Source: Nitrospirota bacterium (GTDB taxonomy: Bacteria; Nitrospirota; Nitrospiria; Nitrospirales; UBA8639). From it: DNA of 51,205 nt. Position 1 is the first letter of the stretch, and each line of letters begins with the position of its first letter. This document shows positions 8,944 to 36,930 of the stretch, one piece after another. Both the position numbers and the translations under genes were made by a program. The stretch lies in NCBI GenBank assembly GCA_003695915.1, contig RFGF01000070.1, positions 1-51,205 of the forward strand, given 5' to 3'. The notes beneath the pieces are model-generated. The model did no database searches and was not told the origin of the DNA. It was given only the letters and a program-made list of their open reading frames with translations.

Positions 8944-11265
8944 ATGACCGCATCGGTATTTATCTCCGATATTTCCTTTAGAGCTTCTATGGACATGAAT
9001 TTTTTCGCCTTGAGTGGTTTGTTAAACGGTCTAGCGGCCACGGGATTGATGGCACTTGTCTATAGTCGCTCGCCGCGAGATCTTCGACATTGGACTTTTA
9101 TATTGTTCGGACTGGCTACGGCGATTTGGAGTTACGGCTACTGCGCCTGGCATGTATCCTCGGACAAAGAATTTGCACTGTTTTATGTTCGATTGCTGAT
9201 GGCAGGCGCGATTTTTATCCCCGTCACCTTTCTCCATCACGTGGTTGTGCTACGGGATCTCTTGCCCGATACCCGAGTCATTTTGAAAGCATGCTATGCC
9301 ATCGGCGTGTGCTTCCTGTTCACGGATCTGACGCCATTTTTTGTGGCCGATGTCCGAACGACGATGTCGTTTCCCTATTGGCCGGTCCCTGGTCCGCTCT
9401 TCCACGTATTCCTCATCTGGTGGGTGGGGGTCGTGGTGTATTCTCATGTCCTTTTGGGCCGAGCGGTGTTTCAAGAAAAAGGCATTCGGCGTCAACAGTT
9501 CAGCCATCTGCTGCTCGGCTCGAGTATCGGGTATGCAGGGGGAGCGACAAATTTTCCTTTGTGGTATGGGATCGAACTGCTTCCTTACGGAACCATCTGT
9601 TTTACAGTGTATATTGCCTTGGTCGCCTATGCGCTGCTTCGCTATCATCTGTTGGACTTTTCCATATACGTCGAGCGTGGGTTGAGTTATCTCGGCGTGT
9701 TGTTCTTGATTTCTCAGCCGGCCTTTCCCATTTTACTGTTGGCCCAACAGTCGATCTTTGGGGCCATCAGTCTGCGATTTTCCCTTGTGCAAGCCGCCGT
9801 GCATCTTTTGACGGTAGCAGGAGCCTATCAGTTGAAGGTTGGAACTCGCGGTGCCATTGCGCGCACGGTAATGAGAGGACGCGAATTGCGATTCAAAACA
9901 TTTTCGCGGTTTTCTTCCACTGTCGCGAATAGCTCTGATCTCGATACGGTGGGGCAGGAAATTGTGCACACCTTCTGCGAAGAGCTCCATGCCAAAACGG
10001 CTGTGTTGTATCTCCTGGACCAGGAAAACAACCAGTACGCCCCTGTGTCTTTTTATGGCGAACGGTTGGCGCTGTCATCCTATCCGCGTTTTTCGGTTAC
10101 GCACGAACTGCCTCGTTATTTAGCCATTGTTCAGCGTGAAGTGTTATGGCGTGAATTGGAGCATCTCCCATCTGATGGATGGAAAGTGATCGTGGCTGAA
10201 ACTTTGGCTCGCATGGAAGCCGACATTTGTGTGCCGTTCATCACGAAAAATCGATTGCTAGGATTTTGCCTGTTGTTGAGGCCATTGATGCAACAGGCGA
10301 CAGAGCCTGGCCGAGCCGTGCAATTACTTGCGCCGTTGATTCAAGAAGCAGCCCTCTCCCTCGAAAATGCACTTCTCCAGAAAGAAGTTCAGCGATCGCG
10401 GGCTTTGGTCTTGCACCTGGATCGTCTGCGCTCGTTAGAAGCTATGGCAGGTGGGTTGGCCCACGAATTGCGTATGCCTTTGACGACGATTAAAGCGTTT
10501 ACTCAGCTTGCCCAGCTGCGAAAAGATGACGAGGAGTTTTTAGCCCGTTTCCGGGCTGTGGTGGCCGAAGATATCGAACGCATCGAGCGATTGACCAAAG
10601 AAATACGAGAGTATATGCAGGCCGACCAGCCGGTATTCGTCCGAACCGATGTGAACAAGATCCTCTATGATTGTGTGTCTCACTTGTCCCACAATCCGGA
10701 ATTCCGGAAGTACAAGGTCGATCTTTCGCTTTCACCTCAGCTCCCGCTCGTCTCGGCCAACCGCCAGCAACTCAAGCAGGCTTTGTTCAATATCCTACTT
10801 GATTGCTTGACCGACGAAGAATTGGAAGGAGAATGTGTTTGTGTCCGATCGTATGCTGTCAAGGCAGCCGCGAACGATCGATGGATACAGATCGAGATTT
10901 TTAGAACTCAGGACCATGGTTTACACCGAGGGACACAGGCCGGACACAGCGAGTTCTTGATGACGGAGGCCGTGCGCCGATCATCCATGGCAGAGGGCTT
11001 GGTCATTGTCGAAGAAATCATTCAATCGCATGGCGGGATTTTTTCTGTCCGAGCTGTCCGAGAGGGTATCCAGCCGACCAACCAACCCGCGAAGCTGTAT
11101 GTGGTGAATCTTCCGGAAACGGAGCATGCGTCCACAGAGGAGGGATCGAGATCAGCTTCTATACGATTGGAATCGCAGGCCGTTGCGCGACCATTATGTT
11201 CGGAGAGACAGCCTGACCCTGGCAAGGAAAGATACATCTACTCGCAATCCGAAGGCGATTCATGA
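8944..11265 (+). CDS. Membrane sensor protein, histidine-kinase-like, with degenerate ATP-binding domain
   Basis: The N-terminal 250 residues form about seven or eight hydrophobic membrane segments, resembling the 7TM sensor region found in front of many histidine kinases. A GAF domain follows (about 320-475), then a HisKA helix pair with GLAHELRMPLTTIKAF, where the usual Asn of HExxNP is Met but the phosphoacceptor His and the Pro remain. The C-terminal domain aligns by position with HATPase_c but the second Asn of the N box is Asp (NILLDCL), the DxGxG motif is replaced by RTQDHGLHRG, and only GLVIVEEIIQSHGG remains of the G2 region. ATP binding is therefore doubtful. ATG 8989 (MDMNFFALSGLL) is an equally good start. 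Its stop overlaps the next kinase gene by four bases. Confidence 0.88.
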   Translation: MTASVFISDISFRASMDMNFFALSGLLNGLAATGLMALVYSRSPRDLRHWTFILFGLATAIWSYGYCAWHVSSDKEFALFYVRLLMAGAIFIPVTFLHHVVVLRDLLPDTRVILKACYAIGVCFLFTDLTPFFVADVRTTMSFPYWPVPGPLFHVFLIWWVGVVVYSHVLLGRAVFQEKGIRRQQFSHLLLGSSIGYAGGATNFPLWYGIELLPYGTICFTVYIALVAYALLRYHLLDFSIYVERGLSYLGVLFLISQPAFPILLLAQQSIFGAISLRFSLVQAAVHLLTVAGAYQLKVGTRGAIARTVMRGRELRFKTFSRFSSTVANSSDLDTVGQEIVHTFCEELHAKTAVLYLLDQENNQYAPVSFYGERLALSSYPRFSVTHELPRYLAIVQREVLWRELEHLPSDGWKVIVAETLARMEADICVPFITKNRLLGFCLLLRPLMQQATEPGRAVQLLAPLIQEAALSLENALLQKEVQRSRALVLHLDRLRSLEAMAGGLAHELRMPLTTIKAFTQLAQLRKDDEEFLARFRAVVAEDIERIERLTKEIREYMQADQPVFVRTDVNKILYDCVSHLSHNPEFRKYKVDLSLSPQLPLVSANRQQLKQALFNILLDCLTDEELEGECVCVRSYAVKAAANDRWIQIEIFRTQDHGLHRGTQAGHSEFLMTEAVRRSSMAEGLVIVEEIIQSHGGIFSVRAVREGIQPTNQPAKLYVVNLPETEHASTEEGSRSASIRLESQAVARPLCSERQPDPGKERYIYSQSEGDS

Positions 11266-13616
11266 GCCTCGTTGAAGATTATTGTATCGATTCCCATAAT
11301 CCGTTTCGAAATCTGATCGAACACATTCCTCTCGTGACCTACTCAGCCTCGTTTGAAGACGGCTTTCGCTTGATCTATATCAGCCCACAGGTCGAAACGA
11401 TGCTGGGGTTTCCTCCGTCTTATTGGACCTCCACTCAAGATTGTTATATTCGGCATATTCATCCGGATGATCGGGAACGCGTGCTCAAAGCCAAAACCAA
11501 TTCGGCGATGTCGCGGACGACATTCGGTGCCGACTATCGAATGCTGACGGCCGAGGGTCAATCGATTTGGGTTCGCGATCAAGCGCACATTGTGTCTTCC
11601 AAAGAGCGTGGGGCTCTGTTTCAGGGTGTCTTGTTCGATATCTCGTCTGACCAGCAACTGGCGGAGGAATTAGGGCGGTGGGATGCTGAAGCTCGGTCAC
11701 TCGCCGAACATTTGCCCGTCATTCTTGCACGGTTCGATCGCCATCTGCGATTTCTCTATGCGAATCGGTGGCTTCGTTCTGATCGGTGCTTGGCCCCCGA
11801 AGCGTATCTCGGAAAAACGCTTCAGGAATTGGAAGACGACGAGCACGTTGTGAAGTCGTGGACAGAGACGATTCAGAAGGTATTTGCGGACGACCGACCG
11901 CGGCGCTTGGAATTCTCGATGGCGACCCCGCAAGGCCGGAAACACTATGAATCCCATTTTGTTCCGGAATATGGGCCCAAGGGATATGTCGAGGTCGTCT
12001 TGACTGTGACCAATGATCTCACCCATCGAAAAGAAACAGAAGCCTCGTTATACGAAAGCGAAGCGCGCTTTCGTCAACTGGCGGAATCCATTGACGATGT
12101 CTTTTGGTTGGCCGATGCCGCATCAGAGAAGATTTTGTATGTGAGTCCGGCTTATGAACGACTTTGGGGGGCGACAGCGCGGACGTTGTATCAACGATCG
12201 TCGGCCTGGCTGGATTTGGTGCATCCCGATGATCGGGCTACTGTGCGTGAACGATTTCGTGACCGGGTTCAGCGAGGCGGATATAGTGGAGAATATCGGC
12301 TGCTCCGATCCGATCGGACGATCCGGTGGGTCTATGAGCGAACCTTTCCGATTAAAACCCCGGATGGACGAGTGCACCGTGTGGCGGGGATCGTTGAAGA
12401 TATTACCGATCGGAAGCGGTACGAAGAAGAACGCCTTCGCATGAACAAACTGGATTCTTTAGGGTTGCTGGCCGGTGGCTTGGCCCATGATTTCAACAAC
12501 TTGTTGACGGCGATTCTTGGACAACTGACGTTGGCCAAATTGGCTTTGTCCCCGCATGACCGCCTTTTTCAGCGTTTGACGGAAGCTGAGGCGGCTTCCT
12601 TGCGGGCTCAGGAGTTGACGAATCAATTATTGACCTTTGCCAAGGGAGGGCTGCCCATCAAAAAGGCCGCTTCGCTTCGTCAGCTTGTAGAAGAATCGGC
12701 TCGATTTGTTCTACGCGGATCAAATGTCAAATGCCAGTTTCGATTCGCCTCCGATTTGTGGCCGGTGGAGATTGATGTCGGACAAATCGGGCAAGTCATT
12801 CAGAATTTGGTGATCAATGCCAAGCAGGCGATGCCCGATGGGGGCGTAGTAACGATCCAAGGTGAGAATGTCGTCATCACGGCAGGCGATCGACCACCGG
12901 GAAGCCTGGATCTTTCTGCCGGTCATTGGGTGCGTGTGACATTCGCTGACCGGGGCGTGGGAATCCCTGCCGAGAACCTGGAAAAAATTTTTGATCCGTA
13001 TTTTACGACAAAGCCAACTGGCTCAGGGTTAGGCCTGGCTACCTCGTATTCCATTGTGAAGAAACACGGCGGGGTGCTCAGCGTCGCCTCACAAGTGGGT
13101 GTGGGGACAACCTTTACTTTGTACTTGCCAGCCATGCCTTCTGCGAGCGTTGAACATTCGCAAGAGGATTCTTTGGCCGTGGAGTCGGGATGTGGTCGGA
13201 TTCTGATCATGGATGACGAAGAGCCGATCCGAAGGCTGCTCAATGATATGCTAGAGCTGTGTGGATACACTTGTGAGCTTGCTAAAGATGGATATGAAGC
13301 GTTAAAGATGTTTGAGCGCGCGCGATCAGAAGGTCAACCGTTTCATGTCGTGCTGCTGGACTTGACGGTTCCAGGAGGGATGGGAGGAAAAGAGACCTTC
13401 CAGCGCTTGAAAGAGCTCGATCCCCAGATTAAAGCCGTGGTCATGAGCGGGTATTCGAATGATCCGATTTTGGCTCGCTATCAGGACTATGGGTTCCACG
13501 CACGAATTACCAAACCGTTTAAATTCCGTGAACTTGCGGAGGTTGTTCGCAATGTTCTTTCTATCCGTACAAACCACGGTGACAACAGATCGACAGATCC
13601 ATGCAAACTGCGATAG
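11262..13616 (+). CDS. Hybrid sensor histidine kinase: PAS-PAS-PAS-HisKA-HATPase-receiver
   Basis: Soluble hybrid kinase of 784 residues with no membrane segment. Three PAS domains occupy about residues 15-390; the first and third carry the PAS_3 ending HPDDR. HisKA has the phosphoacceptor in GLAHDFNNLLTAILG, HATPase_c has intact boxes (NLVINAKQAM, FADRGVGIP, FDPYFTTK, GSGLGLATSY), and the C-terminal receiver (ILIMDDEEPIRRLL, phosphoacceptor Asp in VVLLDLTVPGGMGG, Lys in ITKPFKF) is complete. It starts inside the stop of the upstream membrane sensor (ATGA), so the two are translationally coupled and probably signal together. There is no output-domain response regulator next door. Confidence 0.95.
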   Translation: MSLVEDYCIDSHNPFRNLIEHIPLVTYSASFEDGFRLIYISPQVETMLGFPPSYWTSTQDCYIRHIHPDDRERVLKAKTNSAMSRTTFGADYRMLTAEGQSIWVRDQAHIVSSKERGALFQGVLFDISSDQQLAEELGRWDAEARSLAEHLPVILARFDRHLRFLYANRWLRSDRCLAPEAYLGKTLQELEDDEHVVKSWTETIQKVFADDRPRRLEFSMATPQGRKHYESHFVPEYGPKGYVEVVLTVTNDLTHRKETEASLYESEARFRQLAESIDDVFWLADAASEKILYVSPAYERLWGATARTLYQRSSAWLDLVHPDDRATVRERFRDRVQRGGYSGEYRLLRSDRTIRWVYERTFPIKTPDGRVHRVAGIVEDITDRKRYEEERLRMNKLDSLGLLAGGLAHDFNNLLTAILGQLTLAKLALSPHDRLFQRLTEAEAASLRAQELTNQLLTFAKGGLPIKKAASLRQLVEESARFVLRGSNVKCQFRFASDLWPVEIDVGQIGQVIQNLVINAKQAMPDGGVVTIQGENVVITAGDRPPGSLDLSAGHWVRVTFADRGVGIPAENLEKIFDPYFTTKPTGSGLGLATSYSIVKKHGGVLSVASQVGVGTTFTLYLPAMPSASVEHSQEDSLAVESGCGRILIMDDEEPIRRLLNDMLELCGYTCELAKDGYEALKMFERARSEGQPFHVVLLDLTVPGGMGGKETFQRLKELDPQIKAVVMSGYSNDPILARYQDYGFHARITKPFKFRELAEVVRNVLSIRTNHGDNRSTDPCKLR

Positions 13617-13644: not shown

Positions 13645-13685
13645 GATCGAGGAGAAGGGCTTTTCTCCTCCTCGATCCTTTTTCT
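13645..13685. terminator. Intrinsic terminator between convergent genes
   Basis: A perfect 10-bp stem (GATCGAGGAG / CTCCTCGATC, 13645-13654 and 13668-13677) with a 13-base loop is followed by CTTTTTCTG on the plus strand. It lies between the hybrid kinase stop (13616) and the end of the convergent methyltransferase gene (13691). The T-run supports termination of the plus-strand kinase transcript; action on the minus strand is possible but less supported. Confidence 0.8.
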
Positions 13686-13690
13686 GACGA

Positions 13691-14650
13691 TCACCCCTGA
13701 ATGTGGAGAAAAAGATTCACGCCTTCCGGCTCCTGGTCAATGGCAATGTTGGCGGGAGCTACGCCACAGTCCTCAGCCAGTTGTCGCAAATGCTCTTCGC
13801 TCCGATGGTTTAAGATCCAATCGAAGAGCTCCATGTAGCCTTTGCTGGGATTCCGATCGGAAAAATTTCCGATCACGAGTTTGCCGCCTGGAGCTAGCGC
13901 GGGCAATAATCGCTTGAGGACCCGCTTAAAGAGCGCATCGGTGAAATAATCGAACAGGCCAGCTGACCATATAAGGTGGTAGCTTCGTGCGGGTTTGAAA
14001 CGAAAAACATTGCAATGGAAGAAGGTGATTTGCGCCGAATAGTCTGCACAGAGTCGTGAAGCATAATCGATCGCTTGCTTGTCCTGGTCGAGACAATCGA
14101 AGTACACGGGTGTTTTGCCCAGGACTTTCAAGGCCTCGTACATGTCCCGGCCTGGCCCGCTGGCAAGATTTAATATGCGGGCTTCTTGCGGATGGCGAAG
14201 ATGTGCATCCCAGACTTGAGATAAAAAGTATGAAACCCGATTCCGCACGGCTTTCGGCGCACTGTGGGAGTGAAAAAACTTGTCCCAATTCGCCAGGCTG
14301 GGATTGTCCGACACATAGTATTGATAAATCCGGTCGATGATCTCGTAATCTCCCGCGTACCCATGAGGTTTGTGGAGAGCCATGCCTTGAATGGTATCCG
14401 TGGAGATGGCATCGCCTAAGCTAGTGCGAATGGCGTGCCATTGTTCAGGTGTCAATGCGCCCTTCCGCAGCCATTCTGCGAGCACATCGATCACAGTATT
14501 GAGTTGGGAGTATTCCGAGGGTTGTGGGCCTCCTTGGGCAGCAAGGTGGCAGAGGTACGCTTGAATGGAATCAACGACCTCGGCCGACGGTGCAGGGAAT
14601 GAGTTGGTCTGGTTCAAGAACGCGATGGGACAGGCAGTGATGGTGGTCAT
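13691..14650 (-). CDS. Class I SAM-dependent methyltransferase (PhcB/EF-like family)
   Basis: A 319-residue protein with the SAM-binding motif I ILNLASGPGRDMYE and a post-motif acidic strand VYFDCLDQDK, so a Rossmann-type methyltransferase. The motif HKPHGYAGDYEIIDRIYQYY upstream of the SAM domain is one I associate with the family that includes PhcB-like and 3-hydroxypalmitate methyl ester synthesis proteins; that link is from memory and the substrate is unknown. The start is ATG 14650, chosen because AAGGAGGAG lies 5 bases upstream. The frame extends upstream to 14848 but those residues look non-coding. The last 30 residues (CGVAPANIAIDQEPEGVNLFLHIQG) are the usual C-terminal strands. Confidence 0.85.
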   Translation of the reverse strand: MTTITACPIAFLNQTNSFPAPSAEVVDSIQAYLCHLAAQGGPQPSEYSQLNTVIDVLAEWLRKGALTPEQWHAIRTSLGDAISTDTIQGMALHKPHGYAGDYEIIDRIYQYYVSDNPSLANWDKFFHSHSAPKAVRNRVSYFLSQVWDAHLRHPQEARILNLASGPGRDMYEALKVLGKTPVYFDCLDQDKQAIDYASRLCADYSAQITFFHCNVFRFKPARSYHLIWSAGLFDYFTDALFKRVLKRLLPALAPGGKLVIGNFSDRNPSKGYMELFDWILNHRSEEHLRQLAEDCGVAPANIAIDQEPEGVNLFLHIQG

Positions 14651-15473
14651 GGGACTCCTCCTTATGAGAAATGCTGTTTCGACAGAACAGCAGTTGGTTA
14701 TGGTTGAAGGATAGAAAGCCGGATGAAAGGCGTCGAAGATAAGGAGGAGAAAACCGTATAAAACAATGAAGCCGATAACGCTGTCCCTTCGCCACGCAAA
14801 AGATAGGGAATGGGAGACGACGCAGCTCGATATTTGAGCCACGGTCATAGATAAAAATCTGATGCATACGAGAAGGCACCATGGCTGAGCTATCGTGTCC
14901 GACTGACCAAATTGAAAAAATCTACCAGCGTATTTACATAAAAGATGCTCCTCTGTTGAACATGATCAATGATGACACCAGCTAAGCTCATATCATGATT
15001 CTCGAACAAGATAGGATTTCAAAACGACGCAAAAATACAATGATGTAAAGCAGAAAGTCCAGTAACCCTATGGCTCCTGAACGACGAACCGATTGTCATC
15101 AGTCTCTGTCGTCGCCTGCCTTTGGAACGCATTCTATGTACTTACAATACTCCGGGTCTTCTGTCTAGATGCCTAGGCTCAGGCGATTTCTCCCATTGCG
15201 TTAGCGTTATTATTTGGTCATTGTGTCTCGAATAGGCAGGTTCTTGAGAAGAAGATCATGCACGAAAATTCTTTCGGTCCGCATGCACAATGATTGCGGA
15301 GTGACACAGTGCCCCTGAACGGAGTGTTGAAAAGAAGAGACTTAGCAGGCTGCAACGCCATCTTCTGCGAGAAATTAAAACGATGATGTCTCCCGCTTTG
15401 CGATATGCGCGTAAGTTGCCCGTTTTCAAGAGCGTTGCATGGAACCTGCTCATAAAAGATCAGGCTTCATGAA

Positions 15474-30730: not shown

Positions 30731-30733
30731 TTA

Positions 30734-33682
30734 TTCTAAGGTTTCCGGGAGAAAACTCACGGTTTCTTCCTCGCTAAATTTCACTTCGGCTTCTTCAGCC
30801 GGAATGAACTGTTGGATTCGCATATTTCCACTATCGGCCACATACACGGTGCCGCGACTGTCTACGGCGATGCCGTACGGGAAATTAAATTGGCCGTCTC
30901 CGTTGCCAAAGCCACCCCATTGCGTGATGAAATTGCCATCACGATCGAATTTTTGAATTCGCTGATTCCCAGTATCCGCTACGTAGACATCGCCAGCGTC
31001 ATCGACGGCGATTCCCCATGGCGAGCGGAATTGTCCGGGTTCTTGGGCTTGTGGGCTGCTGGCATGACCAGCCCCGATTCCACCACCCCATTTGGCTAAT
31101 AATTGCGGAAGGACATTGGTGCTGGTGTCAAATTTTTGTATGCGATGGTTTCCCATATCGACGACATATACGGTGCCGTCGCTTTGATCAACGGCGATGC
31201 CACGTGCGAAATAAAATTGCCCATCACCGCTGCCAAAGCTCCCCCATTGCATAATGAATTCGCCCTGTTCATCGAATTTCTGAACGCGGAAGTTGGCGCT
31301 GTCGACAACGTAAATGTACCCGCGAACACGGTCGACGGCTACGCCCCAGGGTGAATTGAATTGTCCTTCTCCATTCCCGCGAGAACCAAACTTCATGAGA
31401 TAGTGGCCGAGCCGACCATCGAACTTTTGAATCCGATGATTGTTGGTGTCGGCGACATAGACATCGCCGTTGGCGTCGCAGGCAATACCGGTGGGATTGT
31501 TGAAATTGCTATTGGCTGCACCAAAGTTCCCCCACAGAAGAATGAAGTCGCCATTGGGCGAGAATTTCTGGATCCGATTATTCCCGTTGTCGACCACAAA
31601 AACAGATCCTTGTCGATCGATCGCGAGTCCGTAAATGGGGCTCATGAATTCTCCTCCGTGAAGGAGCGAAGCCCCACGGCCCGGCTTGCCCCATTTTGCC
31701 GCGCATATGTAGCCAGAAGTGTTCAGCAGGATACTTGCGCTCGCCGGGACCGACACATTGTTGTTGGCATCCTTGAACCAGACGTAAACCGTTTTGAGCC
31801 CATCTCCTGGCGAGGTCGTAAATGGGATAGTGGCGCCGAATCGATGTTCCGGTTCAACCTCGACCCAGCCTGGCATCGTGGCGCTCGGGGTCATGGGATT
31901 TTCGGAGATGAAGTAGGCGGCCACTCCGGTATCGAGGTCTTTAGCCGAAATGGTGGCGACGAGATCCGGGCTGTTGGTCATATAGGCCCCATGGTTCAAG
32001 ACGATGTCAGGATTTTGTGGAGCCGCAATATCAATGAGAACTGGAGTGGCTGACTCTTCAGCGGACAAGGGGCTTTCCGCTCCCTCTTCCGTCACTGCCG
32101 TCAGCGCGTAGTAGTAGGCTGTGTTATTCGTGAGGCCGGTATGGGTATAGGGGCTGGTGACGCCTTCGATCTTCGTTGCGGTTTCTTTCGTAAATCCTGG
32201 GGTAGTGCTGAAATACAGGTTGTAGGAGACTGCGCCAGGAATCTCCATCCAGCTGATGATGTTTTCTGTGTCGCCGGCTTTTACGGCAATATTCAAGGGA
32301 TGAGCTATTTCGGCAGATACCGGTGTTTGGCGTTGCTCTTGGTTGCGTTTCAATTCTTCTTCTGTCGGAGCATATTTGGTCACTCGATTGTTTCCGCTAT
32401 CGACGACATAAACATTGCCTTCTTTGTCGACCGCGATCCCAGAGGGAAAATTCAGCTGGCCTTCGGTCAGGCCTCGGTTGCCCCATGAACAGAGAAACGT
32501 TCCATTGGAATCAAACTTTTGAACACGATGATTGCCGCTATCGACCACGTACACATTCCCTAAAGCATCACAGGCGACGCCCCATGGAGCTTTGAATTGC
32601 CCCGGGCCACTACCTTCTTTTCCCCATTTCAACAAGAAATTGCCTCGCGAATCGAACTTTTGGATGCGATTATTGCCCTCATCAGCCACATAGACATTGC
32701 CGACAAAATCGACCGCGATGCCACGAGGATAGAAAAATGCGCCATCGTATCCGCCATCACGTCCCCATTTTAAGACAGGTGTGCCATCGGGAAGAAATTT
32801 CTGAATTCGAGAGTTGCTGGTATCGGAGACATACAGATGGCCTTGAAGATCGGTGGCCACACCCCACGGAACATCGAACTTTCCTGCCTCTGCTCCTCGC
32901 CAGGCAAAACCAAATTTGCCCCAGGCGTTGATCACGTTGCCATCACGATCCAATTTTTGGACCCGATTGTTCCCGCTGTCTGAAACGTAGATGTCGCCTT
33001 CCGGCGAGACCGCTAACCCACGCGGATAATAAAAGGTACCTTCTTCAGATCCGGGTTCATCTCCCCACCGCGCGATAAAATTCCCGTCTTTATCAAACTT
33101 TTGAATGGAGTGGTTGTCGGTGTCGGCGACATAAATGTTGCCTTCGTTATCGATTGCAATTCCGGTGGGAGATTGAAATTCGCCATCATCGATGCCTTCG
33201 ACGCCAAATTTCAAGACGGGTAAGTACGGAGCCGGAATGCTCATGACCTCTTCCGATTCTGGGCTCTCCCCGCTGGCTGTGACGGCCGTCACGACATAGT
33301 GATAACACAAATTGTTGGCGAGATCCGTATGGACATATGGACTCTCGACGCCTTCAATACAATTGCCCTTTTCTTTAGTTACACCGATGATTGGGTCAAA
33401 ATCGGCGGGGCTGGCGATAGGGCGAGCGACATCGGACTGTTTGATTTCTACACCCTTACTCGTGAGGAAATAAAGATTATAGTACAGAGTACCTGGAACC
33501 GGATCCCAGGTGATCGTGATGCGCCCATTGTCCGGCTTTGCTTTGACGTTTTGCGGTGGGGGAGGAAGCTCGCTTTCCTGTGGTTCGCCGGCTCCCCAAT
33601 CCTCTTCTTGACCAACGATGTTCAAGACATGGCAAACGTTTTGATCATCAACGAATTTCTCAAAGCGGTTATCCTTCATCAT
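30734..33682 (-). CDS. Large NHL-repeat protein: FN3, six-bladed propeller, FN3/Ig, second six-bladed propeller
   Basis: About 980 residues from ATG 33682, chosen over an upstream extension because of AGGGTG just before it and poor composition beyond. An N-terminal FN3-like domain (about 45-160) is followed by six NHL repeats, each about 47 residues with the pattern GIAVD..GNVYVADSGNNRIQKFD..G. Then come a second FN3 domain and an Ig-like segment with GDGLKTVYVWFKDANNNVS, and finally six more NHL repeats. That gives two complete six-bladed beta-propellers. I see no signal peptide, transmembrane helix or enzyme domain, so localisation is uncertain. The function is unknown; NHL propellers usually bind protein or RNA. 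The stop TAA is at 30731-30733, just outside the coordinates given. Confidence 0.9.
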
Positions 33683-34198
33683 AATGGTCACCCTATTCAA
33701 TGTGAGACTGAAGTTGGTGAAGAGAGACGATGGAAATTTTTCCAGTAAATCCAAATACTTATGCGTGAAAGTCTAGCAGCCAATTTTGAAGGAAGTCAAG
33801 GTAGGGAATTATTCGGTAGCGAGTCTACGTAGAATGCGACAAGATAACCTATCTGTTATGGCGCTTGGCGAGTGTCATACAATCCTGTGTCTTCCTGGGA
33901 ACGATAGCATGTGTGCTAGAGAATGTCAGTGTTTATCTTATGCCGAGAACGTCAACGCCGCACTTGTGGTTGTTCTTGAGAGTCATAGAGTCGTTGATGG
34001 ATTCACGGGATGTGTGACGTTGATTGAGCAGTGTCAACTCAACTCCCGCTTGCGCCAAAGATAACATGTTCGTCTATTCTAAGCTTGTTTGAACGGGGCA
34101 AAGGTTATTCTATCGTCTTGATTCATGAATTCTTGTCCGTGGAACGGAAAGAACCAGCGTGGGATGGTTCACCGCACAGCCTATGGATCTTGAAGTTT
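33683..34198. other. 516-base intergenic region between the NHL gene and the cold-shock gene
   Basis: It contains the promoter and leader of the NHL gene at its left end. A plus-strand frame at 33786-34064 (TTG start) looks non-coding: it has no Shine-Dalgarno and no recognisable fold. A short stem GAACCA-N8-TGGTTC (34151-34170) followed by TTT on the minus strand may terminate the cold-shock transcript. I see nothing else. Confidence 0.5.
33770..33799 (-). promoter_or_regulatory. Candidate promoter of the NHL-repeat gene
   Basis: On the minus strand, TTGACT (33799-33794), 18 bases, TAGACT (33775-33770). This gives an untranslated leader of about 80 bases before ATG 33682. Judged by eye from hexamer similarity only. 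Confidence 0.35.
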
Positions 34199-34746: not shown

Positions 34747-35832
34747 TTGTTGACGCTGCTCGATCGATACATCTTTAAAGAACTGCTCTCGCCATTTGCG
34801 TCAAGTTTATTCGCCTTAAGTTTTATTGTATTTGCCAAGGAAATGTTGCGTTTAGTGGATCTCATTGTCTCCAAGGGTGTCGGCCTGACTGCGATTGTGA
34901 AAGTTATTGTGCATTTGATGCCATCATTTTTGGTATTGACCATTCCCATTGCTTGCTTGATCGCTTCGATCGCGGCTTTCAGCCGGCTCTCGTACGACAA
35001 CGAGTTGCTGGCGATGCGGGCGACGGGCTTGAGTCTCTGGCGTATAGCAATGCCGGTGCTGTTGTTTTCCAGCCTGACCTTTGCCCTGACGGTGTATTTA
35101 TCGCAATGGGGACAACCATGGTCCAATATTTCGTTGAAGAAGATCGCTTTGAAAATGCTTGAGGATCAGTTAAATCTGGCTTTGGAGGCCGGAGTGTTCA
35201 ACGAGCCGATTCCCGGCTTGATGGTCTATGTCCCTCATCCACGTGATGGTCAAGAAGCGACAGGGCTTTTTATTTCGGATCACCGTGATGCCGATACGCC
35301 ATTGGTCATTGTGGCGAAGTCGTACCAGGTGCTCAAAGATCCGGCGCGTAAACGGCTAGGACTTCGACTTCATAATGGAACCATTCATCAAATTCCTCGC
35401 GATATTCAACAATATCATCAAGTTGGATTTACTACTTACGATCTCTGGTTGGAGATCCCTGCTTCTCAAAGAATTGGCACGATTGCCCGACCGAGTTATG
35501 CCGAGATCATCCAGCAGCTTGAAAAGACCGGTTGGCAAGATAGAGGAGCCCTGCGCCGGTTGATGGAATATTATAAGGATTGGGGATTTCCTGTTGCGTC
35601 GTTACTTTTGGGGTTGCTGGGTGTGCCGGTCGGCATTGTATCGAAACGATCTGGCCGGGTTGGGGGGTTTGCTATCGGAGTGATGATTATCGTCGGATTT
35701 TACCTCATGAATGTGTTGGGAGAGTATCTGGTGACCTCTTATTTCCTTCATCCATTTGTGGGAGCATGGCTCCCTGATGCTGTGATCTTGGGCGTCACAG
35801 GATGGTTGTTTGTTCGGGCGAGCCAGCAATAA
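34747..35832 (+). CDS. lptF: LPS export permease LptF
   Basis: Inner-membrane permease of the LptB2FGC lipopolysaccharide transporter. It is 361 residues with the YjgP/YjgQ architecture: the start LLDRYIFKELLSPF, three N-terminal membrane helices, a periplasmic beta-jellyroll domain (about 120-250, GLFISDHRDADTPLVIVAKS) and three C-terminal helices with SLLLGLLGVPVGI. TTG 34747 or 34750 are the only starts that give the complete N-terminus; no Shine-Dalgarno is visible, so initiation may be weak or leader-dependent. It is followed 6 bases later by lptG. Its presence indicates an LPS-bearing outer membrane. Confidence 0.93.
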   Translation: MLTLLDRYIFKELLSPFASSLFALSFIVFAKEMLRLVDLIVSKGVGLTAIVKVIVHLMPSFLVLTIPIACLIASIAAFSRLSYDNELLAMRATGLSLWRIAMPVLLFSSLTFALTVYLSQWGQPWSNISLKKIALKMLEDQLNLALEAGVFNEPIPGLMVYVPHPRDGQEATGLFISDHRDADTPLVIVAKSYQVLKDPARKRLGLRLHNGTIHQIPRDIQQYHQVGFTTYDLWLEIPASQRIGTIARPSYAEIIQQLEKTGWQDRGALRRLMEYYKDWGFPVASLLLGLLGVPVGIVSKRSGRVGGFAIGVMIIVGFYLMNVLGEYLVTSYFLHPFVGAWLPDAVILGVTGWLFVRASQQ

Positions 35833-35838
35833 CGAACC

Positions 35839-36930
35839 ATGAACATTCTCTTTCGATATATGTTCCGCCAATATGCCAAGATCTTTGGTCTGTGCCTTCT
35901 CGTGTTGGTCACTGTCTATGAGGTTGTCGATTTCTTCGAGAAGCTTCGGAAATTCCTGAAATACGAAGCCGATATCTCCTTCATCGCAGCCTATTTTTTG
36001 TACAAGGTCCCGGAAATTACCTTCACGCTGGCTCCATTGGCCGCGTTGATGGCCACACTCCTTTCAATCGGCACCCTGAATAAAAATAAAGAGATTACGG
36101 CGATGCGGAGCTGTGGCATAAGCAATCTTCAGATCGCCGCTCCGTTTGTGACGTTCGGTGCATTGCTCTCCGGACTTTTGTTCATTTGCACGGCGGTCGT
36201 GATCCCCATGAGCAATCTCAAGGCAAACTATATCAAGCGAGTGCTCATCGAACAGAAGTCCGAGGAATTATTGGTCACACCTGACAAGCTTTGGATTCGC
36301 TTGGATCCGTATGCGCTGCTCCAAGTCGAATCCGTAGAGCCTCAAGGTGCACGATTGCACCAGGTGCATTTCTTTCGCATGGCCCCGGGTTTTCGATTGC
36401 AAGAAGTGATTCAAGGTGACCGAGCGGTGTATGGCACAGGGCGTCAGTGGACGCTAGAAAATGCTGTCCGTAGAAGACTCGATGCTCAGGGGCGTGTCGT
36501 ATCGGCTCAATACGAAGCCTTGCCGTTCCCGCTCCCACTCACTCCCGAGGATTTCCGAACTTGGCTAGCCGTGGAGCCGAAAAATATGACCTTGATGCAG
36601 CTTGCGACTTATATTGAGCGAGTTGCACGCGATGGCCACGATACCGATTGGCTCGTGACGGAATACTGGGGAAGGATCGCCTTCTCGACGGTCGCACTTA
36701 ACATGACAATGTTGGGGTTGGGGTTAGGGCTGCTCCATTCCCGGACGCGCGGGGCAACAGTCACGAAAGGTGTCGGGCAGGCATTGGGGATAGGCTTTGT
36801 CTTTTGGGTGATTCATTCTCTCGGAATTGTTTTGGGGCGGAATGGTACCATCACGCCTCTTGTTGCAGCGTGGATCGCCAGCGCGATGTTTTTCGCGATT
36901 GGGCTCAAAGTCTTTTTGCAGGCACGGTAA
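35839..36930 (+). CDS. lptG: LPS export permease LptG
   Basis: Partner of LptF in the LPS export complex, 363 residues. It begins MNILFRYMFRQYAKIFGL and shows YKVPEITFTLAPLAALMATL and NKNKEITAMRSCGIS, the coupling-helix region that contacts LptB. A periplasmic domain follows, then three C-terminal helices (NMTMLGLGLGLL). The start is ATG 35839, 6 bases after lptF, so the pair is an operon. LptF and LptG are paralogues of similar length; the assignment of which is which follows the gene order usual in other bacteria. Confidence 0.93.
   Translation: MNILFRYMFRQYAKIFGLCLLVLVTVYEVVDFFEKLRKFLKYEADISFIAAYFLYKVPEITFTLAPLAALMATLLSIGTLNKNKEITAMRSCGISNLQIAAPFVTFGALLSGLLFICTAVVIPMSNLKANYIKRVLIEQKSEELLVTPDKLWIRLDPYALLQVESVEPQGARLHQVHFFRMAPGFRLQEVIQGDRAVYGTGRQWTLENAVRRRLDAQGRVVSAQYEALPFPLPLTPEDFRTWLAVEPKNMTLMQLATYIERVARDGHDTDWLVTEYWGRIAFSTVALNMTMLGLGLGLLHSRTRGATVTKGVGQALGIGFVFWVIHSLGIVLGRNGTITPLVAAWIASAMFFAIGLKVFLQAR

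Follow-up and report, generated by a model that had tools for sequence, protein, structure and literature searches.

What keeps a membrane histidine kinase in a genome once its ATP site has gone? The question is raised by two adjacent genes on contig RFGF01000070.1 of a Nitrospirota bacterium (assembly GCA_003695915.1; the 51,205-nt stretch analysed here is called the window), the first encoding a degenerate membrane kinase, K1, and the second a soluble hybrid kinase, K2. To our knowledge, only a small number of bacterial histidine pseudokinases have been studied in detail, most of them as proteins on their own, and our literature search found no account of a Nitrospira histidine pseudokinase. 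The answer that we reach, and regard as likely, is that K1 is a conserved, dead membrane sensor, derived from a duplicated 7TM-GAF kinase, that allosterically sets K2.

Both open reading frames proposed by the first-pass annotation are present on the plus strand (773 and 784 aa). The longest K1 frame (ORF1) runs from 8944 to 11265, and because K1 orthologues begin at residue 18 of its 773 aa, the true start is probably the ATG at 8995. The locus comprises the following features:

8995–11265, plus strand: K1, membrane histidine pseudokinase, 756 aa from the probable start (ORF call, Pfam, orthologue starts)
9034–9660, plus strand: 7TM sensor region of K1 (HisKA_7TM), residues 31–239 of 773 (Pfam E 2.5e-14; helices in the AlphaFold model)
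9934–10356, plus strand: GAF-like domain of K1, residues 331–471 (weak Pfam GAF_2 match; alpha/beta pattern in the model)
10438–10629, plus strand: DHp/HisKA domain of K1 (Pfam HisKA E 1.3e-9)
10462–10464, plus strand: His507 of K1, phosphoacceptor position (sequence context GLAHELRMPL)
10639–11070, plus strand: degenerate catalytic (CA) domain of K1 (motif alignment; no HATPase_c match; CA fold in the model)
11262–11265, plus strand: ATGA stop/start overlap of K1 and K2 (sequence)
11262–13616, plus strand: K2 (ORF2), soluble hybrid kinase, 784 aa (Pfam; orthologue alignment)

The layout of K1 is 7TM-GAF-DHp followed by the degenerate catalytic domain. Its membrane region belongs to HisKA_7TM (PF16927), scoring 54.1 bits against a gathering score of 28.6, and the same family is matched by 15 of 15 K1 orthologues (Pfam, E ≤ 0.1). 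The GAF_2 match reaches only 19.6 bits, under the Pfam cut-off; the GAF domain is clear in the paralogues.

Loss of the ATP site across the K1 clade

K1 had been described as lacking both DxGxG and the second Asn of the N box, and we find the same losses in all of its orthologues but not in the intact paralogues. In the window copy the N box reads FNILLDCL, with the first Asn kept and the second replaced by Asp, DxGxG and GxGLGL are absent, G2 has shrunk to SSMAEGLVI, and Pfam finds no HATPase_c domain even at E ≤ 1. Searching 60 relatives and scanning named bacterial and archaeal genomes yielded 24 distinct orthologues that reach the motif region, the named ones all from Nitrospirota records titled Nitrospirales, Nitrospiraceae, Nitrospiria or similar. 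None of the 24 carries DxGxG or GxGLGL, and the second N-box Asn is gone from all of them, while the first is invariant. Against the HATPase_c profile (Pfam, E ≤ 0.1), 0 of 15 scanned orthologues matched, compared with 14 of 14 from the closest paralogue family. All K1 orthologues form one clade in a maximum-likelihood tree (support 100/100), sister to intact kinases. Orthologues with intact boxes would have made this copy merely divergent; intact boxes occur in paralogues only, which form a clade of their own, and that reading is ruled out. Because orthologues share the losses and intact paralogues do not, chance and sequencing error are ruled out as well, as is a pseudogene, the ORFs being conserved. 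K1 shares the loss of its ATP-binding motifs with all its orthologues and classes as a histidine pseudokinase. With the first N-box Asn invariant, so divergent a CA domain may keep residual nucleotide binding, which counts against the explanation that we prefer; the pseudokinase DivL itself weakly binds ATP.

The window genome also encodes a true paralogue of K1 (type B; G000:C37:31823-33880), about 36–37% identical, which shares the 7TM-GAF-DHp-CA layout but has all catalytic boxes intact and no K2-like neighbour. Its family occurs in most of the same genomes as K1, including this one. At type B loci (L100:5053-7404, on C37 of this genome, and others), a gene fusing Acyl_transf_2 (LuxD-like) and methyltransferase parts lies upstream of the kinase and a convergent O-methyltransferase downstream, both enzymes of lipid type, an arrangement conserved in most type B genomes. 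K1-like proteins are found at the type B locus too: one (G005, L094) carries Gln at the His position and has no second Asn in its N box, and two others (G012, L095; G006, L096) keep the His and have lost DxGxG. These three represent a second decay within the family, separate from that of K1. A third type of 7TM-GAF kinase (type C; L074, L075, L076) is intact and lies beside a gene that by eye resembles a fatty acid desaturase.

K1 lies beside a complete hybrid kinase

K2 fits its first description as a complete soluble hybrid kinase, with the layout PAS-PAS-PAS-HisKA-HATPase-REC and its catalytic and receiver residues kept. Pfam identifies three PAS domains, HisKA, HATPase_c (5e-22) and Response_reg; His409, N515/N519, DxGxG and GLGL, together with Asp651, Asp652, Asp700 and Lys751 of the REC domain, are invariant in 16 of 16 aligned K2 sequences. 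K2 is predicted to be a working hybrid kinase. The best NCBIfam models for it are those of CckA, at 268.9 bits against a cut-off of 1000, so that K2 falls outside the CckA family and would be CckA-like in layout only.

At 21 of 21 K1 loci with enough contig, K2 lies directly downstream in the same direction (the L108 and L111 contigs carry only its N-terminal part). The adjacency spans at least four genera, although shared descent confounds both it and co-occurrence, g1, g5, g8 and g9 all being genera of one family. The ATGA overlap, which the first-pass annotation took to tie the expression of the two genes, is real but unique to this genome; short spacers replace it elsewhere, about 6–270 nt by longest-ORF starts. 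Translational coupling through ATGA as the defining link between K1 and K2 is rejected as a conserved trait, and the conserved part of the link is co-directional adjacency rather than overlap. The pairing of a membrane pseudokinase with a soluble hybrid kinase holds up, given the orthologue-wide loss of the ATP site, the purifying selection described below and this constant adjacency.

Selection on K1 and its predicted fold

Between close species pairs, dN/dS was 0–0.09 in the K1 DHp domain, 0.06–0.15 in the 7TM region, 0.07–0.16 in the linker and GAF domain, and 0.10–0.23 in the dead CA domain versus 0.03–0.10 for the CA domain of the active paralogue; the pairs share branches and the estimates are non-independent, yet every value lies far below 1. 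K1 is maintained by selection (0–0.23 by domain). Its CA domain is relaxed but not free, and the DHp helices are the most strictly kept part although the His has gone. ORF length is 715–773 aa in all complete K1 orthologues except one on a low-coverage contig (G035 C401; L097/L119), where two overlapping ORFs of 485 and 327 aa make up K1 at a coverage of about 1, likely an assembly error.

An AlphaFold model of K1, built from 15 sequences and of modest overall confidence (mean pLDDT 67, pTM 0.39), shows helices in the membrane region, then a GAF-like domain, a long pair of DHp helices and an alpha/beta domain of CA type, in which the ATP-lid region (model residues 640–665) is unstructured. Among the many kinases matched by the CA domain in a comparison with solved structures is NtrB (Z 17.0, 129 residues, 2.7 A), and the domain also resembles the CA structures of RetS (7n0e, Z 15.9), one of its top matches, and DivL (Z 15.6). 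K1 is thus predicted to keep the CA fold, a statement about the CA part of the model only; by this match to NtrB and the HisKA match in Pfam, the histidine-kinase architecture of DHp plus CA fold is retained. A likeness of the 7TM region to GPCR structures (Z 17.1) was taken as a common helical arrangement only.

The constraint on the DHp, the highest in K1, would also suit a DHp that docks a phosphorylated response regulator, whether the K2 REC domain or another, and so brings information into K1, or a K1 that serves as phosphatase of the K2 REC domain. The HisKA phosphatase motif is Glu-x-x-Asn/Thr. At the motif position four residues past the His, K1 has Met in the window, whereas its orthologues have Ser, Asn, His, Gln or Tyr, so that phosphatase chemistry is unlikely. 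There is a precedent for docking in DivL, which acts as a receiver-binding sensor with DivK~P (PMC4211667), but no cognate response regulator gene adjoins the K1–K2 loci, and we consider the docking and phosphatase alternative improbable.

The phosphoacceptor histidine of K1

The first-pass statement that K1 keeps its phosphoacceptor His is right for this copy, where H507 is present, but describes a minority state. The His is kept in 4 of 24 orthologues (the window copy, G011/L103, L115 and L116); the position is otherwise occupied by Gln (18/24), Arg (1/24, G007) or Glu (1/24, L118). Since the distribution of His on the K1 tree requires at least three changes, the residue was lost more than once, or regained, after the ATP site had gone. 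The variation within the clade suggests an order of decay in which the ATP site went first and then the His, several times.

These counts bear on the possibility that K1 is a phosphotransfer intermediate, its His507 phosphorylated in trans by K2 or another kinase or drawing phosphate from the K2 receiver. The HELRxP context of His507 in this copy, a HisKA match above the Pfam cut-off and the four orthologues that keep the residue would all suit such a role, but 20 of 24 orthologues have replaced the His while K2, the pairing and the synteny persist, and so phosphate on K1 is not the conserved function. A phosphate relay through the K1 His is disfavoured by the sequences, and with it the earlier suggestion that K1 hands phosphate to its partner; we rate the intermediate as distinctly unlikely, although the window copy, which has the residue, may still use it and be trans-phosphorylated by K2. 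A K1 gene that is in decay and without function, or that encodes a sensor with no relation to K2 and is its neighbour by chance, fits the faster evolution of its CA domain and the long branches of the K1 (type A) clade but is very unlikely given its intact ORFs, low dN/dS in every domain and adjacency to K2 across genera.

A model for K1 and K2

The reading of K1 as a dead sensor that sets K2 is based on the loss of the ATP motifs, the repeated change of the His, purifying selection, invariant K2 residues and constant adjacency, all observed in the sequences. We infer from these that K1 does no catalysis, that it contacts K2 physically, that control runs from K1 to K2 and that a signal is sensed. 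An active 7TM-GAF histidine kinase would have been duplicated to give the ancestor of K1, which then lost ATP binding. K1 would dimerise through its retained DHp helices, sense a membrane or extracellular signal with its 7TM and GAF parts, and allosterically set the kinase/phosphatase balance of K2, with all chemistry carried out by K2, from ATP to His409, to Asp700 of the REC domain and on to a downstream HPt or regulator. K1 probably steers K2 instead of phosphorylating anything itself. Handing conformation to K2 is the half of the first-pass proposal that would survive.

In K1, decay can be followed while the active partner next to it stays unchanged and the same genomes carry an intact paralogue, and the comparison can address whether a dead kinase still needs its phosphoacceptor. 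The pair offers a receptor system of two proteins that can be put to the test, in a phylum that has had little study.

The neighbouring methyltransferase and the rest of the window

Two features follow K2:

13645–13684, plus strand: inverted repeat and then a T-run, terminator-like, between K2 and the methyltransferase (read from sequence)
13691–14848, minus strand: class I SAM methyltransferase, convergent neighbour downstream of K2 (Pfam Methyltransf_25; synteny)

The inverted repeat and T-run are likely a terminator; the repeat is absent from the listing of our terminator scan, which had a loop limit of 8. The promoter and terminator scans were no richer than shuffles, and Rfam gave no match in the window.

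The convergent methyltransferase is present in 17 of 60 relatives, the same set as K1–K2 except for G019, whose contig ends too early, and G022, in which only K1 fragments are assembled, and this co-occurrence is confounded by descent. The protein has only generic methyltransferase matches, among profiles that do not include PhcB, and its homologues on plasmids are about 25% identical, have unrelated neighbours and carry the generic name "class I SAM-dependent methyltransferase". In the Phc system of Ralstonia, of the PhcB/PhcS type, a methyltransferase that makes a 3-hydroxy fatty acid methyl ester is encoded beside a sensor kinase. By analogy, and from gene context, a three-gene Nitrospirota module can be imagined, in which a lipid-type methyl ester from the methyltransferase serves as the signal and K1 as its receptor, with receptor occupancy relayed to K2 by conformation alone; we hold this to be speculative and rather unlikely. 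If true, it would be a quorum-type system in relatives of nitrite oxidisers, with a receptor in which ATP binding was the first loss and the phospho-histidine followed on several independent occasions.

Elsewhere, the window encodes a protein of 1007 aa that has an fn3-like part at its N terminus and many NHL repeats (30731–33754, minus strand) and tandem LptF/LptG-family permease genes (34747–36930, plus strand).

Comparison with known pseudokinase systems

RetS–GacS of Pseudomonas resembles the proposed working of K1–K2 in that a kinase-like protein makes DHp contact with a hybrid kinase and regulates it. The input and tandem receivers of RetS differ from K1, and RetS and GacS are both membrane proteins. 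CovS of group A Streptococcus is a membrane, non-hybrid kinase, whereas K2 is a soluble hybrid. Its partner RocA is a pseudokinase with six TM segments that binds CovS in the membrane and, like K1, is a multi-TM protein with a degenerate CA domain and a His that is present, yet dispensable in RocA (PMC7028121). RocA has no GAF domain, unlike K1 with its 7TM region and GAF.

In Caulobacter, the hybrid kinase CckA is controlled by DivL, which needs no kinase activity to do so (PMC4211667), and this pair is like the proposed K1–K2 system in that a pseudo-histidine kinase with a substituted phosphoacceptor position controls a PAS-containing hybrid kinase. DivL has PAS input, keeps its H/N/G1/F/G2 boxes and carries Tyr for His; K1, with 7TM-GAF input, its ATP boxes lost and His, Gln, Arg or Glu at the phosphoacceptor site, falls outside the DivL family. 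There is no family-level homology between the two pairs, and no partner like ChpT or CtrA is seen near K1–K2. The likeness of K1–K2 to DivL–CckA and RocA–CovS is most likely one of working only.
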